A stretch of 37,951 nt of DNA from a virus. The stretch lies in the IMG/VR virus record IMGVR_UViG_3300025030_000266, positions 1 to 37,951 of that record; one strand, written 5' to 3'. Below the pieces are notes generated by a model. That model saw only the letters and a list, made by a program, of their open reading frames with translations, made no database searches and was not told the origin of the DNA. The position numbers and the translations under genes were made by a program. Shown here piece by piece: positions 28,004 through 36,560 of this stretch (positions are counted from its first letter, which is position 1; each line of letters opens with the position of its first letter).

Positions 28004-28357
28004 TCACCCTGCCTCTGCCAGGTAGCTGTCAAACAGCCCGGCCTGGTCGCGCTTCTCGGCGATCGGCCGGATGATCCGGATACGGTTGCGAACCTGCCGG
28101 CCGGTGAGTTCGAACGCCTGACCCACTTCGTCATAGTTCGAACCGTTGAACATCTCCCACATCTTCCAGTCGCGCTCCTCCAGCTGGTCCGAGTTGGGGA
28201 TGTAGATCCCCTCGCAACCGCCCCATTTCTTCCGGATGGTGCCGACTACGCAGAAAGCGATTGAGTTGGCCTCGGCTCGCGGCATGCCGATCTCTTTGAC
28301 CAGGTCCTCCAGGATGTGCTCCCGGATCTCCGTGAGTGTGGTGCTCTGTTTTGGCAT
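28004..28357 (-). CDS. Mor/C family transcription activator
   Basis: 117 residues from ATG 28357, overlapping the GemA stop (TAATG). The block KWGGCEGIYIPNSDQLEERD, then KMWEMFNGSNYDEVGQAFEL and a helix-turn-helix TGRQVRNRIRIIRP, matches Mu Mor and C, including the GG-x-x-YIP and FNG motifs. These proteins bind as dimers to interrupted palindromes upstream of -10 boxes and recruit RNA polymerase. Only one such gene is seen here, where Mu has two (Mor, then C). It is the obvious candidate to act on the three late palindromes. Confidence 0.92.
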   Translation of the reverse strand: MPKQSTTLTEIREHILEDLVKEIGMPRAEANSIAFCVVGTIRKKWGGCEGIYIPNSDQLEERDWKMWEMFNGSNYDEVGQAFELTGRQVRNRIRIIRPIAEKRDQAGLFDSYLAEAG

Positions 28358-28866
28358 TATCGTGCTCCGCTCAGGTCCCAGTTTTCCTTCTGGGCCTTCT
28401 TTGTAAGGGCGGTGATGATGCGGAAGAGATCCTTGGCCGGGACCCACTGTACCTTGTCCGCCAGCCGCATCTGTTTGGCGATACCGTCTGCGTACGCCCA
28501 GGACAAGCCGCCGATCGTCAACAGCGCTTCGATCTTGCCCAGCTGCGCGTCACGGGACTCGCCGGGGGTGTCCATGTTCGTGGGCCGGTTCGGATAGCCC
28601 TTCTTGGTCCAGGTGCCTTTCTTCTTGGGCACTGCCTCGCCGGCCAGCTCGGTCAGCTGCTCGATCAGGGTGATCCGCTCGGCCGGCGTCAACTCTTTCG
28701 AGGACTCGCAGCGGCCTTTGCTGATGATGCTGATGGTGTCCCGGTAGTTTTCGTCGGAGTACTCCGGCCGGGCCTTCTTGACGTTGCCCAGGAGCGCATG
28801 AATCCGGGAGCGATCGCTATTCCACTGCTGCTCGGGAGTCCGCTTTTTAAAATTTGTTGAAGCCAT
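28357..28866 (-). CDS. gemA: GemA, Mu gp16 (DUF1018) family
   Basis: 169 residues. The pattern DRSRIHALLGNVKKARPEYSD near the N-terminus and the C-terminal LTIGGLSWAYADGIAKQMRLADKVQWV fit the DUF1018/GemA family. In Mu, GemA modulates host gene expression and DNA topology. It directly precedes the Mor/C gene, as in Mu. Confidence 0.9.
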   Translation of the reverse strand: MASTNFKKRTPEQQWNSDRSRIHALLGNVKKARPEYSDENYRDTISIISKGRCESSKELTPAERITLIEQLTELAGEAVPKKKGTWTKKGYPNRPTNMDTPGESRDAQLGKIEALLTIGGLSWAYADGIAKQMRLADKVQWVPAKDLFRIITALTKKAQKENWDLSGAR

Positions 28867-29129: not shown

Positions 29130-29210
29130 CTACCTCGATGCAAGCCAGCTGATGAACCAGCCGACAACTATTGCCAAACTCAATGGTAAAGCTACGATTG
29201 TCCAGTCCAC
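29130..29210 (-). CDS. Possible 26-residue membrane peptide (GTG start)
   Basis: GTG 29210 follows GAAGGGGGGACC and overlaps the end of the repeat gene. The product (VDWTIVALPLSLAIVVGWFI and a short basic end) is a single hydrophobic helix. Size and composition suggest a membrane micropeptide, with chance still possible. Confidence 0.4.
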   Translation of the reverse strand: MDWTIVALPLSLAIVVGWFISWLASR

Positions 29211-29728
29211 GGTCCCCCCTTCAAGATCTGCCTCGCTGCCGCGCAATGGTACTTCTCCGCCATGATCTGCAGGATTTGGAGCGTTACCGCGTCAAGCGTC
29301 GGCGTCTCTGACCTGACCTGACCTGACCTGACCTGACCTGACCTGACCTGACCTGACCTGACCTGACCTGACCTGACCTGACCTGACCTGACCTGACCTG
29401 ACTGGCTTTGGTCCGCTTTAGGCGGCTCAAGCGGGTAGGTCCGGGTATCTCGCCAGGGGCTGTTCGGGTTGTCACCCTTGCCCCGCTTGGCGCGCTTGAC
29501 CAGCTTCTCGGCCTTGTTATCCGGCCGCTCCTGGATGCACTTGCTGCAGGAGTAGAGAGCCTGTCCTCTGTTGATCTCGCACTGTCGCGGCGTGATCCGC
29601 GCGCCGAGCAGTTCGCAGCCGAAGAGATTGGCGGCCGCCATGAAGCGCTCGATGTCGCTTTCCGGCGCTCGCGCCTTGTCGGGTGCCGGGCGGGTGTCGA
29701 CATAGTAGGGTAGCGTCACCGTTCTCAT
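29192..29728 (-). CDS. Unknown Cys protein with pentapeptide microsatellite
   Basis: 178 residues from ATG 29728 (SD GGGGAG, ATGA overlap with the upstream gene). The N-terminal ~110 residues include CELLGARITPRQCEINRGQ and YSCSKC, which could form a zinc site. Then comes SGQVR repeated six times, encoded by 18 exact 5-bp units. A ~39-residue C-terminus (ETPTLDAVTLQILQIMAEKY onward) follows. A gain or loss of one unit changes the frame after the repeat: one frame ends after RRRRLTR, the other after a few residues. The repeat itself encodes the same pentapeptide in all frames. Function unknown. Confidence 0.75.
   Translation of the reverse strand: MRTVTLPYYVDTRPAPDKARAPESDIERFMAAANLFGCELLGARITPRQCEINRGQALYSCSKCIQERPDNKAEKLVKRAKRGKGDNPNSPWRDTRTYPLEPPKADQSQSGQVRSGQVRSGQVRSGQVRSGQVRSGQVRSETPTLDAVTLQILQIMAEKYHCAAARQILKGGPWTGQS
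29308..29402 (-). repeat. Pentanucleotide tandem repeat, 18 units
   Basis: 18 exact copies of ACCTG (plus strand, 29311-29400) with partial units at both ends. It lies inside a coding region. A 5-bp unit is not a multiple of 3, so slippage changes the reading frame. Confidence 0.97.
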
Positions 29729-29958
29729 AACAGACTCCCCTGGGCTCCTTTGCCCGGCGCCACTGGCACGGTGACGATCTCCTGGGAGATGATCTTCGCC
29801 CAATGGCGGCACTGAGGACAGACGACAGCGTTGTAATACCCGGTGACAGCCGCGCCAGACTCCGACTGATTCTTGTTCAGCTTTTTCTTCTGCTGAAATC
29901 TGCCGTGATAGCTGCACACGGCTACGACCTCAACGTGACTTTTCGATTTGCCCTTCAT
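29725..29958 (-). CDS. Small zinc-binding-like protein
   Basis: 77 residues from ATG 29958 (GAGG 9 nt upstream); an alternative start at 29991 adds 11 residues but has a weaker SD. CSYHGRF and CPQCRHW make a C-x2-H / C-x2-C pair likely to hold one zinc. The middle is Lys/Gln/Asn-rich. Unknown role. Confidence 0.62.
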   Translation of the reverse strand: MKGKSKSHVEVVAVCSYHGRFQQKKKLNKNQSESGAAVTGYYNAVVCPQCRHWAKIISQEIVTVPVAPGKGAQGSLL

Positions 29959-30058
29959 ATCGGTTGACCTCATCTCCCCGCGGCTGCTCATCAGACCCCG
30001 GCCGCCACGCCGGGATGACGATCATTTTGTCGACGCCGGCAAAATGATCGTTTCGCAT
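29930..30058 (-). CDS. Small protein, 42 residues
   Basis: ATG 30058 lies just after the previous stop, with AGGAGG 8 nt upstream inside the preceding gene end. The product starts MRNDHFAGVDKMIVIPAWRP and ends highly charged. It overlaps the next gene by 29 nt. An 11-bp inverted repeat falls in its first codons. Confidence 0.45.
   Translation of the reverse strand: MRNDHFAGVDKMIVIPAWRPGSDEQPRGDEVNRYEGQIEKSR
30019..30050. repeat. 11-bp perfect inverted repeat
   Basis: CGATCATTTTG and CAAAATGATCG flank a 10-nt centre that contains GTCGAC and GCCGG. It lies in the first codons of a small gene. It could be an operator or a translation-blocking hairpin. Confidence 0.6.
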
Positions 30059-30294: not shown

Positions 30295-30425
30295 TACCTC
30301 CTCCTGTCTGCAGCCGCAACCGCTGGCGCCAGGACGGCTTCGCAGCTGTTGCAGGCGATAAAAACCAGACCGGGGATGCCCCGGTCTGTTCTGTTGTCAG
30401 TTGACCCGCATTTCGGGCATGTCAT
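30294..30425 (-). CDS. 43-residue zinc-ribbon miniprotein
   Basis: MTCPKCGSTDNRTDRG begins it, then IACNSCEAV: two C-x2-C pairs in a minimal zinc ribbon. ATG 30425 has SD TAGGAGGCCTCC 9 nt after the DUF3164 stop. A terminator-like hairpin lies inside the gene between the two Cys pairs. Confidence 0.65.
   Translation of the reverse strand: MTCPKCGSTDNRTDRGIPGLVFIACNSCEAVLAPAVAAADRRR
30358..30387 (-). terminator. Terminator-like hairpin inside a small gene
   Basis: On the minus strand, CAGACCGGGG-CAT-CCCCGGTCTG (10-bp perfect stem, 3-nt loop) is followed by GTTTTTAT. It lies in the middle of the zinc-ribbon ORF, so it could act as a partial early terminator or attenuator. Confidence 0.65.
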
Positions 30426-30434
30426 GGAGGCCTC

Positions 30435-31061
30435 CTACAGCGCCGCTATGTCGAGCGGGATCGCGATGTAGGCGCCGGATTCGTTGCGTTCGTAGAGCCT
30501 CAGGTACTGCTTGCTGCCAACCACTCGCAGCGACTCATCTAACGCCTTCATGGCCATGCGCCAATCGTCGCTATCGAACTTGTAGCGCTTCACCTCCAGG
30601 AGCTTGCCGATGCTTACGCTCCCCTTGCCATTGGGTGCCAGGAGCTCATCCAGCAGCACGATCAGTTCGGGCTTAGCACCCTCCTTCCACACCTGGACGC
30701 ATTCCCGGATCTTCTCCAGACATGCCTGCAGCTCGGGGCCGACGCCGATCTTCTCGTTTACGGCTACCAGCAGCTTGTAGCCGCCGTTATAGGAGAAAAG
30801 CTGAACGTTCCCCTTCTCGCCGCCTTTTTTGACCTGGAACTCCTCGTTGATGGTGCCGAGCAACGCGTGGACGTCGCCGAAGGTGGTCTGCTTGAATTCG
30901 GCGATCGTCTCGCTCAGCGAGCGCCACTTTGCTGCCAGTTCGGTGACCAGGTCGTCGGTCATCTGCTCCACCGGCGAAATCAGGTGTTCCGGAACCAAGT
31001 GGCCCTTGCCGTTCTGGCGGAACCCCGCCGGTACTTCGATCGCTACCTGTGCTGTCTTCAT
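30435..31061 (-). CDS. DUF3164 protein from internal start
   Basis: In-frame ATG 31061 (MKTAQVAIEVPAGFRQNGKG) has its own SD GAAAGGAG, and the product has the normal DUF3164 length of 208 residues. Both this form and the full-length form may be made. Confidence 0.6.
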   Translation of the reverse strand: MKTAQVAIEVPAGFRQNGKGHLVPEHLISPVEQMTDDLVTELAAKWRSLSETIAEFKQTTFGDVHALLGTINEEFQVKKGGEKGNVQLFSYNGGYKLLVAVNEKIGVGPELQACLEKIRECVQVWKEGAKPELIVLLDELLAPNGKGSVSIGKLLEVKRYKFDSDDWRMAMKALDESLRVVGSKQYLRLYERNESGAYIAIPLDIAAL

Positions 31062-31325
31062 GCTTTTTTGCTCCTTTCGTGGTTGTGGTTTTGCCTCTGT
31101 TTGGCTCTTGCGAGCCGGGATATCCTTGCGCGCAGGCAATCTCTGCACCTGCAGCGCCGCCTCGAAACTCTGCCGGAACACGTCCGGATCGACCCCCTTG
31201 ATCTCCGCGTAGGCGTCGGTCAGGTCCATGTATGTCTGGGTCGCGGGGCCCACCAGGTAAGCCAGCCTGGGATCGGTCCCGATGCGCTTGATCATACCCT
31301 CCACTGCAATGTCCGCCTTGGTCAT
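30435..31325 (-). CDS. DUF3164 protein with extra N-terminal domain
   Basis: 296 residues from ATG 31325, which has a strong SD (AAGGAGG) and a 4-nt overlap upstream. Residues 1-88 make a separate helical unit (MTKADIAVEGMIKRIGTDPR, VDPDVFRQSFEAALQVQRL) with a Lys/Pro/Gln linker. Residues 89-296 are DUF3164, an early-region protein family of Mu-like phages. There is no stop between the parts. DUF3164 is usually ~200 residues, so this is a fusion or two products from one frame. Function unknown. Confidence 0.82.
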   Translation of the reverse strand: MTKADIAVEGMIKRIGTDPRLAYLVGPATQTYMDLTDAYAEIKGVDPDVFRQSFEAALQVQRLPARKDIPARKSQTEAKPQPRKEQKSMKTAQVAIEVPAGFRQNGKGHLVPEHLISPVEQMTDDLVTELAAKWRSLSETIAEFKQTTFGDVHALLGTINEEFQVKKGGEKGNVQLFSYNGGYKLLVAVNEKIGVGPELQACLEKIRECVQVWKEGAKPELIVLLDELLAPNGKGSVSIGKLLEVKRYKFDSDDWRMAMKALDESLRVVGSKQYLRLYERNESGAYIAIPLDIAAL

Positions 31326-31674: not shown

Positions 31675-31901
31675 GCTCCCCCCTTTGAGTGATGGCAGTG
31701 TTGCATAACAGGAACTTCCATTTCTCCGCCGTTGGCGGTCATCAGATCGGACATGGTCTGGTACAGAGCGACCGCACCCTTCGCCTGGTCTTTGGCCGAG
31801 GCTTCAGGGTTATAGCGGACCAGCTCGACGAAGCAGGCAACCATGAGATTGGGATCGAACCCGTACTTGTTCGGGTTCAGCTTCAGCGTCTTTATGTTCA
31901 C
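31668..31901 (-). CDS. Small protein following MuB
   Basis: 77 residues from GTG 31901, overlapping the MuB stop (GTGA). It has a helical pattern (DPNLMVACFVELVRYNPEAS and AKGAVALYQTMSDLMTAN) and ends with MQHCHHSKGGAC, a Cys/His-rich tail. In Mu the gene after B is kil, but I see no clear likeness to it. Confidence 0.6.
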   Translation of the reverse strand: MNIKTLKLNPNKYGFDPNLMVACFVELVRYNPEASAKDQAKGAVALYQTMSDLMTANGGEMEVPVMQHCHHSKGGAC

Positions 31902-32851
31902 CCTTCACCCCCGAGGTCGCGCCATGCAGCCCTGATCACCGCCGGCCCGATCGCGCCGCCCGCGCCGGCGGCGAACATGCTGGCGTTGCGGATCACCTTG
32001 ACCATGCCGCGCAGGGCGCCCGGCTTCTTGGCGATGTCGGCCAGCAGGGCCTGCTCGGCTTTACCGGTGATGCCAAACGCGGCGGCCAGCATATGCGCGT
32101 CGCCGTCGACCGACTGATTCAGACGCAGGCGCTTCCCGATCCTGGAGAACACCTGGGCGAAGTGGGCGGCCCTGGAGCCCCCGGTAATCCGGTTGTAGAC
32201 GCTCTCGTTGCCTGCGAGCACAACGCCCGCGTCGCCATCGGCAAGGTCATAAAGGGAGCGGATTGACTCGATGCCGGAGCTGTTGAGGTGCTGCCCCTCA
32301 TCGACGATCAGCAGGCCGTGGCTGTTTTTCATCCGGCTCACGATCTCCCGGCGGATTTTAGAGGCCGCGCCTCCCTTTTCATTGGAGATCCCGAAGGCGA
32401 TTGCTATCTCCTCCAGGACCGCCGGGACCGTGGAGCAGTCGGGCGTCATGGTGGCGAGCCAGACGTTGGGATTGTTGTCCCGGTAGTTCTTGGCGGTGGT
32501 TGTCTTGCCGACGCCGGCGCCACCGTAGATCACGCAGAAGTCGGCAGCCATCTGGGCGTAGGAGAGCACGGGGAGGATCCGCCCGGCGGTGGGTGTTTTT
32601 ACGAAGGCGGGGGGCGGCGGCATGATATCGGCGGCCGTTTGGCTGCGCTCGCGATACTCGACCCAGGTGCGGAGCTTCTCGAAGATGTTCTCGTTGTTCC
32701 CCTTGTACTTCCCCTGCAGCCAGGAGTTCAGGGCGCCGTCGTTGACCCCGGACTCCCGGGCTACCTGTTTCTGGCTGAGGTCCGACCCTACTTCGGTCAG
32801 GGACCTGATGTGGCTGCGCAGTGCGTCCTGTGTTGCGAATCGTTCGGTCAT
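31898..32851 (-). CDS. Transposition target activator, MuB-like AAA+ ATPase
   Basis: 317 residues with SD AGGAGGAGAA. An N-terminal XRE-like helix-turn-helix (LSQKQVARESGVNDGALNSW, residues 26-45) is followed by an AAA ATPase with Walker A GGAGVGKTT (110-118) and Walker B LLIVDE (180-185). The C-terminal helices end GPAVIRAAWRDLG. MuB coats target DNA as ATP-dependent filaments, activates MuA and gives target immunity. It lies directly after the transposase. Confidence 0.93.
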   Translation of the reverse strand: MTERFATQDALRSHIRSLTEVGSDLSQKQVARESGVNDGALNSWLQGKYKGNNENIFEKLRTWVEYRERSQTAADIMPPPPAFVKTPTAGRILPVLSYAQMAADFCVIYGGAGVGKTTTAKNYRDNNPNVWLATMTPDCSTVPAVLEEIAIAFGISNEKGGAASKIRREIVSRMKNSHGLLIVDEGQHLNSSGIESIRSLYDLADGDAGVVLAGNESVYNRITGGSRAAHFAQVFSRIGKRLRLNQSVDGDAHMLAAAFGITGKAEQALLADIAKKPGALRGMVKVIRNASMFAAGAGGAIGPAVIRAAWRDLGGEG

Positions 32852-32934: not shown

Positions 32935-34899
32935 TCAGATCCTCGTCTTGCGCCTCTCCATCTCCAACTCCTTCATCTGCTCCACCGCCCGTATAAAGCT
33001 GTCCTCGTAGCCGTCGCTGGTGAGCTCCGAGCCCACGGCCTTTTTGAAGGTCCCTTTGACCACCTTGGTGCTCTGCGGCGCCGGTGCCTCGGAAGGCGGG
33101 ATGAAGCTTGCAGCCTGCAGCGCGGTCATGCGGCGCTCGGCGTCCAGCGATGTCTTAACAGCCTTCTTGTAGCTGTTGCGCTGGCGAGCGTGCTCGCGGG
33201 CCGCGTCGTGATCGTTGAAGCCGGCGGCGAGGATGCACTGGGCGGCGCCGATGTAGCGGCCGTCCAGGGTGTAGCAGTGGACCTCCCCCTGCAGGTGTTC
33301 CGGATCAAAGCGGACCGTGATCTTGCGGCCGGCGAAGGTGCGCAAAGCCTCGCTCCAGTAACGGTTCTCGCCCCCGCTGTGGTTGTAGAACTTGATGGTG
33401 ATGGAGGCGTCATCGCGGTTGCAGGTGACGCTGTCGCAGGCGAGCAGCCAGAGCCGCCGCTGCTCCGCTGTGGCCTTGCGGACCACGGTCCTCGCGTAGG
33501 ACTCGGCGAAGACGGCGTCGAAGGAGCGGCCGTTCATGCCGCGGCCGGTGCGGCCCAGGCGGGCGTTGAAGGTGACCACCTCGGTCTCCAGGATCTGCAG
33601 GAACTCTGCGAGCGGTACCGGCCGTTTTTTGGTGCCGCGGCCGTCCCAGGCCGGGTGCTTGTCGACGTACTCCGACAGGCCGCCTCGCCCGAAAATGCGC
33701 TCCACAGGCTTGGCCTGGCCGTGTCCGGGTGTGGCCCAGTGGACGGTGGCGCCCAGCATAGGCACGATCCCCATCGGGTCCTCTTCCTTGACCTTGAAGC
33801 GGTAGCGGTTGGGAGCGCCGCCGGTCATGGTCTTGTTGGCTGCGGCGCGCGTGTTGTCGAACCACCAGTCGCTGGGAATGCCGTAGCGCTCGACCATGTC
33901 GCCGGAGGAGAGACGGATCACCTCGGTATTCTCGGAGACGTCGGCCCGGTAGGTCAAAATCTTGGAGCTGAAGATGTCCTGCCAGACCCAGGCGGTGGGG
34001 CGCACCACGACGCCGTCGCCGAAGTCGACGTGGGGCCAGAAGGTGTAGCCGTCGCCGTTCACCGCCTCCAGGGCGGAAAATACCGCGTGGTCCCGCTCCT
34101 GGTCCGGGTAGCACTTCTTGAGGCCTTCGGCGCCCAGGCGCGCCAGTATGATCGCCTCCCGGGGGAGCTCCTTCTCCAGCTTGCGCATCAGCGTTTTGAG
34201 GCTCGGGATGGTCCAGCCGTGCTTTTTGGCGGAGCGCTCGAGGCGGTCGTAGCAGGCTTGAGGAGTGGGCTGGGCCTTGCGCAGGTAGTCAGCCTTGAAG
34301 GCGTCCCAGGCCAGGATGTCGCACTCCGCTTTTTTCTGGCGGCCGGCGTACTGGTCCACCAGGACCGGGAGCCGGTCGGCGCGGTCGACACCCTTGACCT
34401 TCTTGAGCCAGCCCGACACCGTCTGCCAGTTGTCGCCGACCTGGGCGGCCACGATCTTGTAGGCGTCGCACCTCGACTCCCCCTCGTCGATCAGCTTCTC
34501 CACCGCCGTGATCGCCGCGAGCTTGCGCTGAGCGTCCAGCTTGGCGCGCTCCGGCTTGCGCTCGTAGTAGGCCCAGAGGTGCGAGTGATCGGCCGCTGCC
34601 GGTGATGTGGATGCCGCATCTTTAAATCCGTTTAAATCCCGCTTAACACGGGGCTTTTTGGGCTGCGCCTGCTCGCGCTGCATGTGGATATGGGCGCGGG
34701 TTTCGGCGGGGAGGGAGTCGAGGTGATACTCGGTACGTTTGCCGCCGGGGCCGCCCTTCGCGTCGACCTGCTGAAAGTTCCAGATTTCGCGATCGGCGCG
34801 CAACTGCACGCCGCGTTCTGTACTGGTCCGGAGCAGGCCCGGCAGCCCCGCCAACTCCTTGGCCGGAAAATACTCTTTATCCCAGTTGATGCATTTCAT
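32935..34899 (-). CDS. Transposase, MuA family (DDE)
   Basis: 654 residues, close to MuA (663). The catalytic triad is intact: Asp283 in NGDGY, Asp348 in WWFDNTRAAANK and Glu400 in GQAKPVERIFG. Further MuA blocks are VSENTEVIRLSSGDMVERYG, GAPNRYRFKVKEEDP and VRFDPEHLQGEVHCYTLDGR. N-terminal DNA-binding domains are shortened (MKCINWDKEYFPAKELAGLP opens a MuA-like winged helix). The C-terminus carries the MuB-interacting basic end MERRKTRI. It joins phage ends to target DNA for integration and replication. Confidence 0.97.
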   Translation of the reverse strand: MKCINWDKEYFPAKELAGLPGLLRTSTERGVQLRADREIWNFQQVDAKGGPGGKRTEYHLDSLPAETRAHIHMQREQAQPKKPRVKRDLNGFKDAASTSPAAADHSHLWAYYERKPERAKLDAQRKLAAITAVEKLIDEGESRCDAYKIVAAQVGDNWQTVSGWLKKVKGVDRADRLPVLVDQYAGRQKKAECDILAWDAFKADYLRKAQPTPQACYDRLERSAKKHGWTIPSLKTLMRKLEKELPREAIILARLGAEGLKKCYPDQERDHAVFSALEAVNGDGYTFWPHVDFGDGVVVRPTAWVWQDIFSSKILTYRADVSENTEVIRLSSGDMVERYGIPSDWWFDNTRAAANKTMTGGAPNRYRFKVKEEDPMGIVPMLGATVHWATPGHGQAKPVERIFGRGGLSEYVDKHPAWDGRGTKKRPVPLAEFLQILETEVVTFNARLGRTGRGMNGRSFDAVFAESYARTVVRKATAEQRRLWLLACDSVTCNRDDASITIKFYNHSGGENRYWSEALRTFAGRKITVRFDPEHLQGEVHCYTLDGRYIGAAQCILAAGFNDHDAAREHARQRNSYKKAVKTSLDAERRMTALQAASFIPPSEAPAPQSTKVVKGTFKKAVGSELTSDGYEDSFIRAVEQMKELEMERRKTRI

Positions 34900-34925: not shown

Positions 34926-35399
34926 CTATCTCTTGCCTTCGAGTTCCTGCAGGAAGAGCAAACGCTTTTTCTTTTGCGCCTGCAGCTCCCGGGACTGTTC
35001 ATCAAGCTTCTGTATCTCCGCCCGAAGGGCGTCGGGACCGGGGAGCATGAAGACACCCGCGCCCTCGGCCAGTAGCCGGATCAGCTCGACGTCTCCAGTC
35101 GCAGCACAAAACGCCGAGTAGAAGCGGCCCGGCATATCATGGGGATGGCTGTCGGCGGTCCAATTGTTGATCATGCAGACCGTGATCCGCTCGCCTGCGA
35201 GCTCTTCCATTTCCTCCGCGATCGCTTCCCTGGACTTGGGTGCCTTGCGGATGCCGGCCTTGATCGCCGCACTGATCTGCGCGTTCATATTGAGCCGACC
35301 TGGGCGGCTGAACTGCCGCTCTTCCCTCTCCTGGCGTAACAGGTCCAGGAGGCTCAGCTGGTCGTTATCGGTGACTAAACTTTTTTTGTTCTTTGTCAT
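34926..35399 (-). CDS. Early protein before transposase, unknown
   Basis: 157 residues. A basic N-terminus (TKNKKSLVTDNDQLSLLDLL) is followed by a helical DNA-binding-like middle (SREAIAEEMEELAGERITVCMINNW) and a C-terminal coiled coil (ALRAEIQKLDEQSRELQ). Proteins of this size lie between Ner and MuA in some other transposable phages. A regulatory or replication role is likely but not shown. Confidence 0.7.
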   Translation of the reverse strand: MTKNKKSLVTDNDQLSLLDLLRQEREERQFSRPGRLNMNAQISAAIKAGIRKAPKSREAIAEEMEELAGERITVCMINNWTADSHPHDMPGRFYSAFCAATGDVELIRLLAEGAGVFMLPGPDALRAEIQKLDEQSRELQAQKKKRLLFLQELEGKR

Positions 35400-35838: not shown

Positions 35839-35903
35839 TTAATGTGAAACAGAGTTCCGAACTGATCAGCTTCGGTTCGCAACCCTGTTCGGAACTGAGG
35901 CCT

Positions 35904-36560
35904 ATGAGTTCAGAACTAAACCTGAAGAAAAGACTGCTTGAGATCATCGGCGAAGAGGAGCCGTATAAATGGGCTGCGCGTGCCGGCGTTTCTAAGTCAA
36001 CGCTCTACAACATCCTGAATAAGGACGGCAACCCGCGCGCGGACCAACTACTCAAGCTCAGCAAGGCGACCGGCCGCACCATGGAGTGGTTACTGACTGG
36101 GAGCAGTGGCGAGCTGGCGGAAGAGCTGCAGGGTGTGAGCGAACGGGTGGACCAGTACGAGCCGACTACGGTCGATAAAGTGAAGGTTTACGCGCTAGCC
36201 GGCGCTGGGCATCCGAACGAACTCACCGATACCACTCCGGTTGCAGAAGTAGCGGTGCCGAAGGGGTACTACAAGCCGTCGATCGTTCCGGTACTGATCC
36301 GCGGCCGCAGCATGGAAGACACCATCGTGGACGGTGCGATAGTAGGCGTAGATCGTGAAGATAAGATGGTAGTAAGTGGGGAGATTTACGCGGTTTGGGT
36401 GCCTTATGAGGGGGCTGTGGTGAAGCGACTGTACCTTGACCCGGAAAAGATCACCTGCAGGTCCGACAACTCGAAATTTGCCGACTTTGTCGTAATGTTA
36501 GACCGGGTCGATGAACACTTCGTCCTGGGCCGGGTGAAGTGGGTTATTCAGAGGTATTGA
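35904..36560 (+). CDS. Prophage repressor, LexA/S24 type
   Basis: 218 residues from ATG 35904; the frame is open 60 nt further upstream but across operators. An N-terminal helix-turn-helix (WAARAGVSKSTLYNILN, residues 23-39) is followed by a linker. The C-terminal S24 peptidase domain has Ser136 in GRSMEDT and Lys174 in AVVKRL. An Ala-Gly pair in LAGAG (98-102) is the likely self-cleavage site. This means RecA-stimulated cleavage and SOS induction are possible, unlike classical Mu c, which is not of this type. It is transcribed away from the early operon. Confidence 0.93.
   Translation: MSSELNLKKRLLEIIGEEEPYKWAARAGVSKSTLYNILNKDGNPRADQLLKLSKATGRTMEWLLTGSSGELAEELQGVSERVDQYEPTTVDKVKVYALAGAGHPNELTDTTPVAEVAVPKGYYKPSIVPVLIRGRSMEDTIVDGAIVGVDREDKMVVSGEIYAVWVPYEGAVVKRLYLDPEKITCRSDNSKFADFVVMLDRVDEHFVLGRVKWVIQRY

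Follow-up and report, generated by a model that had tools for sequence, protein, structure and literature searches.

The stretch of DNA analysed here (the window; IMGVR_UViG_3300025030_000266, 37,951 bp) is a Mu-like phage by gene content and carries, inside a gene of its early region, 18 perfect tandem units of a pentanucleotide. We suggest that a temperate Mu-like phage probably uses this array as a slipped-strand switch within a translated accessory gene. If one 5-bp unit were added or lost, the linker SGQVR would still be readable in each frame, and the ribosome would enter or leave the frame in which a conserved tail of 30 residues is encoded. In one frame in three, the one present in the window with its 18 units, the upstream domain would be fused to this tail, and in the other two frames it would terminate shortly past the array. 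In addition, the switch may raise or lower the coupled translation of the next small open reading frame (ORF). We infer useful rates of length change within a single phage population, synthesis of the products, coupling of the next ORF to the tail, and selection for the switch.

The repeat gene and its surroundings

Pfam and PHROG matches identify homologues of MuA, MuB, GemA and Mor in a Mu-like arrangement in the window. The repressor gene (35844–36560) is encoded on the plus strand, and the minus strand carries the genes for MuA (32935–34899; 38–43% identity to Mu and relatives), MuB (31898–32851), a DUF3164 protein (30435–31325), GemA (28357–28866) and Mor (28004–28447). The repeat gene belongs to the accessory genes of the early region, with the DUF3164 gene as the upstream landmark and GemA/Mor downstream, and its earlier designation as an early gene is consistent with this map. 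Directly 5′ of it lies a gene of 88 aa with a Cys/His pattern (29725–29991, minus strand). Just 3′ of the DUF3164 gene, at 30366–30388, a perfect 10-bp stem with a loop of three bases (CAGACCGGGGATGCCCCGGTCTG) is followed on the minus strand by a T run and is terminator-like. Another tandem repeat, with three copies of 21 bp and 88% match, is found at 761–825.

The repeat gene itself is an ORF of 178 aa (29192–29728, minus strand) and a plausible gene: its third-position GC content is 0.81, its neighbours being alike, its ATG overlaps the stop codon of the 88-aa gene (ATGA) and the sequence GGGGAG is found upstream. The 18 exact units inside this gene, ACCTG on the plus strand and GGTCA on the coding strand (29311–29400), which had been read from the letters in the preliminary description, are real, as TRF reports an array of 95 bp (29308–29402) with 100% match. 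The array is thus a pure tandem of a 5-bp unit, which is not divisible by three, within a reading frame. The N-terminal half of the protein (108 aa, 29405–29728, minus strand) contains four cysteines, with one CxxC motif among them, and to call it Cys-rich was generous. The array is followed by a tail of 39 aa and its stop codon (29192–29311, minus strand). With loose thresholds, Pfam and PHROGs gave nothing reliable for either the N-terminal half or the tail. The predicted structure is poor (pLDDT 46), and the tail alone is predicted to resemble a helix–loop–helix.

As had been claimed before, SGQVR is read from every frame of the coding strand, and the three alternative tails proposed at that time were reproduced when the array length was changed in silico. 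The 39-aa tail is found at 18 units as well as at 15 and 21 units, the tail is DADA at 17 or 20 units, and a short end of the RRRRLTR type results at 16 or 19 units. In the two non-fusion frames the upstream domain stops at most about 10 residues past the array.

A related phage with the same junction

A single relative of the locus, the Mu-like phage IMGVR_UViG_3300025013_000111 (37,034 bp; L009/L151, in the following L009), was found in collections which may omit records very near the window. It shares close early genes with the window (85% identity for a 157-aa protein, 70% for DUF3164 and 71% for GemA), whereas the transposase and the structural genes are mostly 23–39% identical or unmatched. 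The 157-aa protein (34926–35399) has only weak relatives outside L009, and the adjoining transposase is far less alike. No counterpart of the 88-aa Cys/His gene was found in L009. At the equivalent position L009 has an array of the same pentamer with 13 pure units, and the ORF 5′ of this array also encodes a CxxC protein; between the upstream halves of the two phages similarity is not detectable. The sequence 3′ of the array is homologous, with the pattern LDxxTxxILQIMA...ILKGG and 53–55% identity. Upstream, the variable slot is bordered by a 39-bp element with the palindromic core GTCATYCCGGCGTGGCGGCCGGRGTCTGATGA (29982–30019, minus strand), which is 92% identical in L009. In each phage a differing inverted repeat precedes this element, ACGATCATTTTG...CAAAATGATCGT in the window (within 29982–30050) and GGAGTACA...TGTACTCC in L009.

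Further searches did not extend this comparison. The N-terminal half has no relatives in the viral contigs or in annotated phages, and the tail has none in annotated phages or plasmids and L009 alone in the viral contigs. Mu-like relatives among the viral contigs and among Desulfobacterota and proteobacterial genomes had neither the tail nor an array of at least 5 units.

In L009 the upstream ORF, which ends in ...SGQGAGT, does not share the frame of the tail and would be joined to it at 14 or 11 units (+1 or −2). Unit number and frame therefore differ between the lineages, 18 units with the tail in frame versus 13 units with the tail out of frame, in two divergent phages whose counts were read from assembled contigs and are inexact. 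The comparison of unit number among sister strains, which had been proposed earlier, thus gave a difference in one distant relative.

The tail appears to be a selected protein segment. Over the 30 codons aligned between the window and L009, pS is 0.90 and pN 0.28, and 16 residues are identical where 9.7 are expected if the same substitutions are placed randomly (p ∼0.001). The other two frames of the tail region hold stops. Together with the substitution pattern this suggests that the tail has been translated in frame for much of the separation of the two lineages, and it is conserved as protein although it appears to be OFF in L009 now. Both arrays are perfect, whereas the synonymous sites of the adjoining tail are saturated, which points to continuing turnover of the arrays by slippage.

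Part of the conserved tail end may be a ribosome-binding site rather than protein. Within the last codons of the tail lies the Shine–Dalgarno-like sequence AAGGGGGG (29214–29221, minus strand), and L009 has the motif at the equivalent place. The end of the tail reads TTRAAGGGGGG in the two phages, and the start codon of a small ORF follows within a few bases. In the window this ORF overlaps the tail's end and encodes a hydrophobic peptide of 26 aa, MDWTIVALPLSLAIVVGWFISWLASR, from a GTG at 29210 (29130–29210, minus strand); in L009 it is an unrelated ORF of 59 aa. The next ORF may be translationally coupled to the tail and so perhaps be switched as well, since ribosomes that read the tail would pass over this site and those in the other two frames terminate before reaching it. 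The preliminary description had missed both that the upstream half is replaceable and that the tail end probably also serves the next ORF as ribosome-binding site.

The proposed switch and other explanations

A switch sampled once in its ON and once in its OFF state would leave the pattern seen in the two genomes. The phase variation of the C-terminus that was proposed from the window alone gains support from L009 with regard to the unit number (13 versus 18), the other frame and the tail, which appears to be under selection at the protein level; switching within a population remains our inference. Eighteen tandem units cannot have come together by chance. Neutral slippage can produce such arrays, and an array alone attests to slippage; the point at issue is its retention and use.

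The rival explanation to be weighed first is that of a passive microsatellite in a disordered, dispensable linker, the length of which drifts and occasionally breaks the frame. L009 might then be a broken copy. The gene has no function assigned by Pfam or PHROGs, and arrays of the pentamer are found widely. With at least 5 units, 6 other stretches are present in 2.9 million viral contigs, L009 being one of them, and the reversed pattern is present in 5 stretches. We therefore rejected the idea that the pentamer is special in viruses, as the reversed pattern is equally frequent there. In cellular genomes the arrays are common, with at least 118 stretches in unrelated contexts, many of them in Actinobacteria and mostly with 5–7 units, and many of the bacterial arrays are without evident function. 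Nevertheless, a passive array would not account for its persistence at one and the same junction in both phages, in which the synonymous sites of the tail are saturated, nor for the conservation of the tail as protein, and we regard this explanation as rather unlikely.

Among the Desulfobacterota, 1 of 395 genomes contains an array, which has no relation to the phage of the window; a Desulfobacula array was rejected as a relative, as it shows no kinship with the genes of the window. GGTCA arrays of 12–26 units are located at the extreme ends of unrelated cellular contigs (L070:5945-6074, L086:3882-3941 and L063:20-119). Arrays of this kind seem to break assembly, and longer ones may be under-counted in public contigs.

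The unrelated upstream halves suggest a different role of the array. With a unit that encodes the same residues in each frame, the array accepts a domain joined in any of them, and array and tail could be a constant recombination joint for various accessory domains, with phase switching as a by-product. The conservation of array and tail, and of the 39-bp element that borders the slot on its far side, would fit this. On the other hand, there are two examples, ordinary mosaic recombination swaps domains without a repeat, and such a joint is compatible with switching; as the main role of the array we consider it quite improbable. A combination of both ideas, to which we give somewhat more credit while still thinking it unlikely, is that the array is a universal hinge, readable in three frames, which connects varied upstream domains to one constant tail and in which slippage sets the frequency of the fusion and of the coupled small ORF. 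If true, a domain-swap joint and a phase switch would be combined in a phage early operon.

Finally, independent translation of the tail, which would begin close to the array or through re-initiation and make the upstream frame irrelevant, is very unlikely: the tail frame of L009 is open from a TTG just 5′ of the array and the tail is conserved regardless of the upstream frame, but no good ribosome-binding site precedes this TTG, the internal ATG of ILQIMA would exclude conserved residues preceding it, the tail of the window is in frame with a well-started ORF, and RNA folding of array and tail was no better than that of shuffled sequences, leaving a masking structure unsupported.

Comparison with known switching systems

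Phase variation by simple repeats has mostly been studied in bacterial surface and restriction genes. If the slipped-strand switch proposed here is real and under selection, phages too would be hedging steps soon after entry or induction, as the array belongs to the early region of a temperate phage. With a unit that is readable in three frames the linker would survive each slip and the tail alone would change, and the locus, which occurs naturally in two states, is a concrete case open to testing. We found no phage pentanucleotide switch in the open-access literature, which is weak evidence of absence.

The CTCTT repeats of the Neisseria opa genes are a coding pentanucleotide contingency locus. 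Coding pentanucleotide repeats also switch a bacterial gene in the case of GACGA in hsdM of H. influenzae (PMC2651432), and a CACAG repeat belongs to a type III restriction–modification system of Pasteurella haemolytica, as the work of Ryan and Lo (1999) is cited in PMC6321876. Like these bacterial loci the window has a pure 5-bp array in a reading frame, the unit is not a multiple of three and a change by one unit in either direction shifts the frame. The bacterial loci are surface or restriction genes whose switching has been measured or is polymorphic, and their OFF state usually truncates the protein early. In contrast, the locus of the window is phage-borne and lies in an early region, it is known from sequence, and the short tail alone would change; the array being open in all frames of its strand is a feature of the window phage.

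Among phages, Campylobacter phages have hypermutable polyG tracts, going by the title of Sorensen et al. (2021) as cited in PMC10877375. As far as this title reaches, they resemble the window in that simple repeats encoded by the phage are a proposed source of phenotypic diversity, and they differ in that a homopolymer in another phage group is concerned, whereas the repeat of the window is a pentanucleotide located between DUF3164 and GemA of a Mu-like phage.

Phage-borne variation is also generated by more elaborate means. The inversion of the G segment of phage Mu relies on an invertase and diversity-generating retroelements rely on a reverse transcriptase, and both act on late tail-fibre genes. 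The switch proposed for the window would be like them a phage-borne, locus-specific variation of a protein end, and it is unlike them in having a tandem array alone and in being located in the early region.
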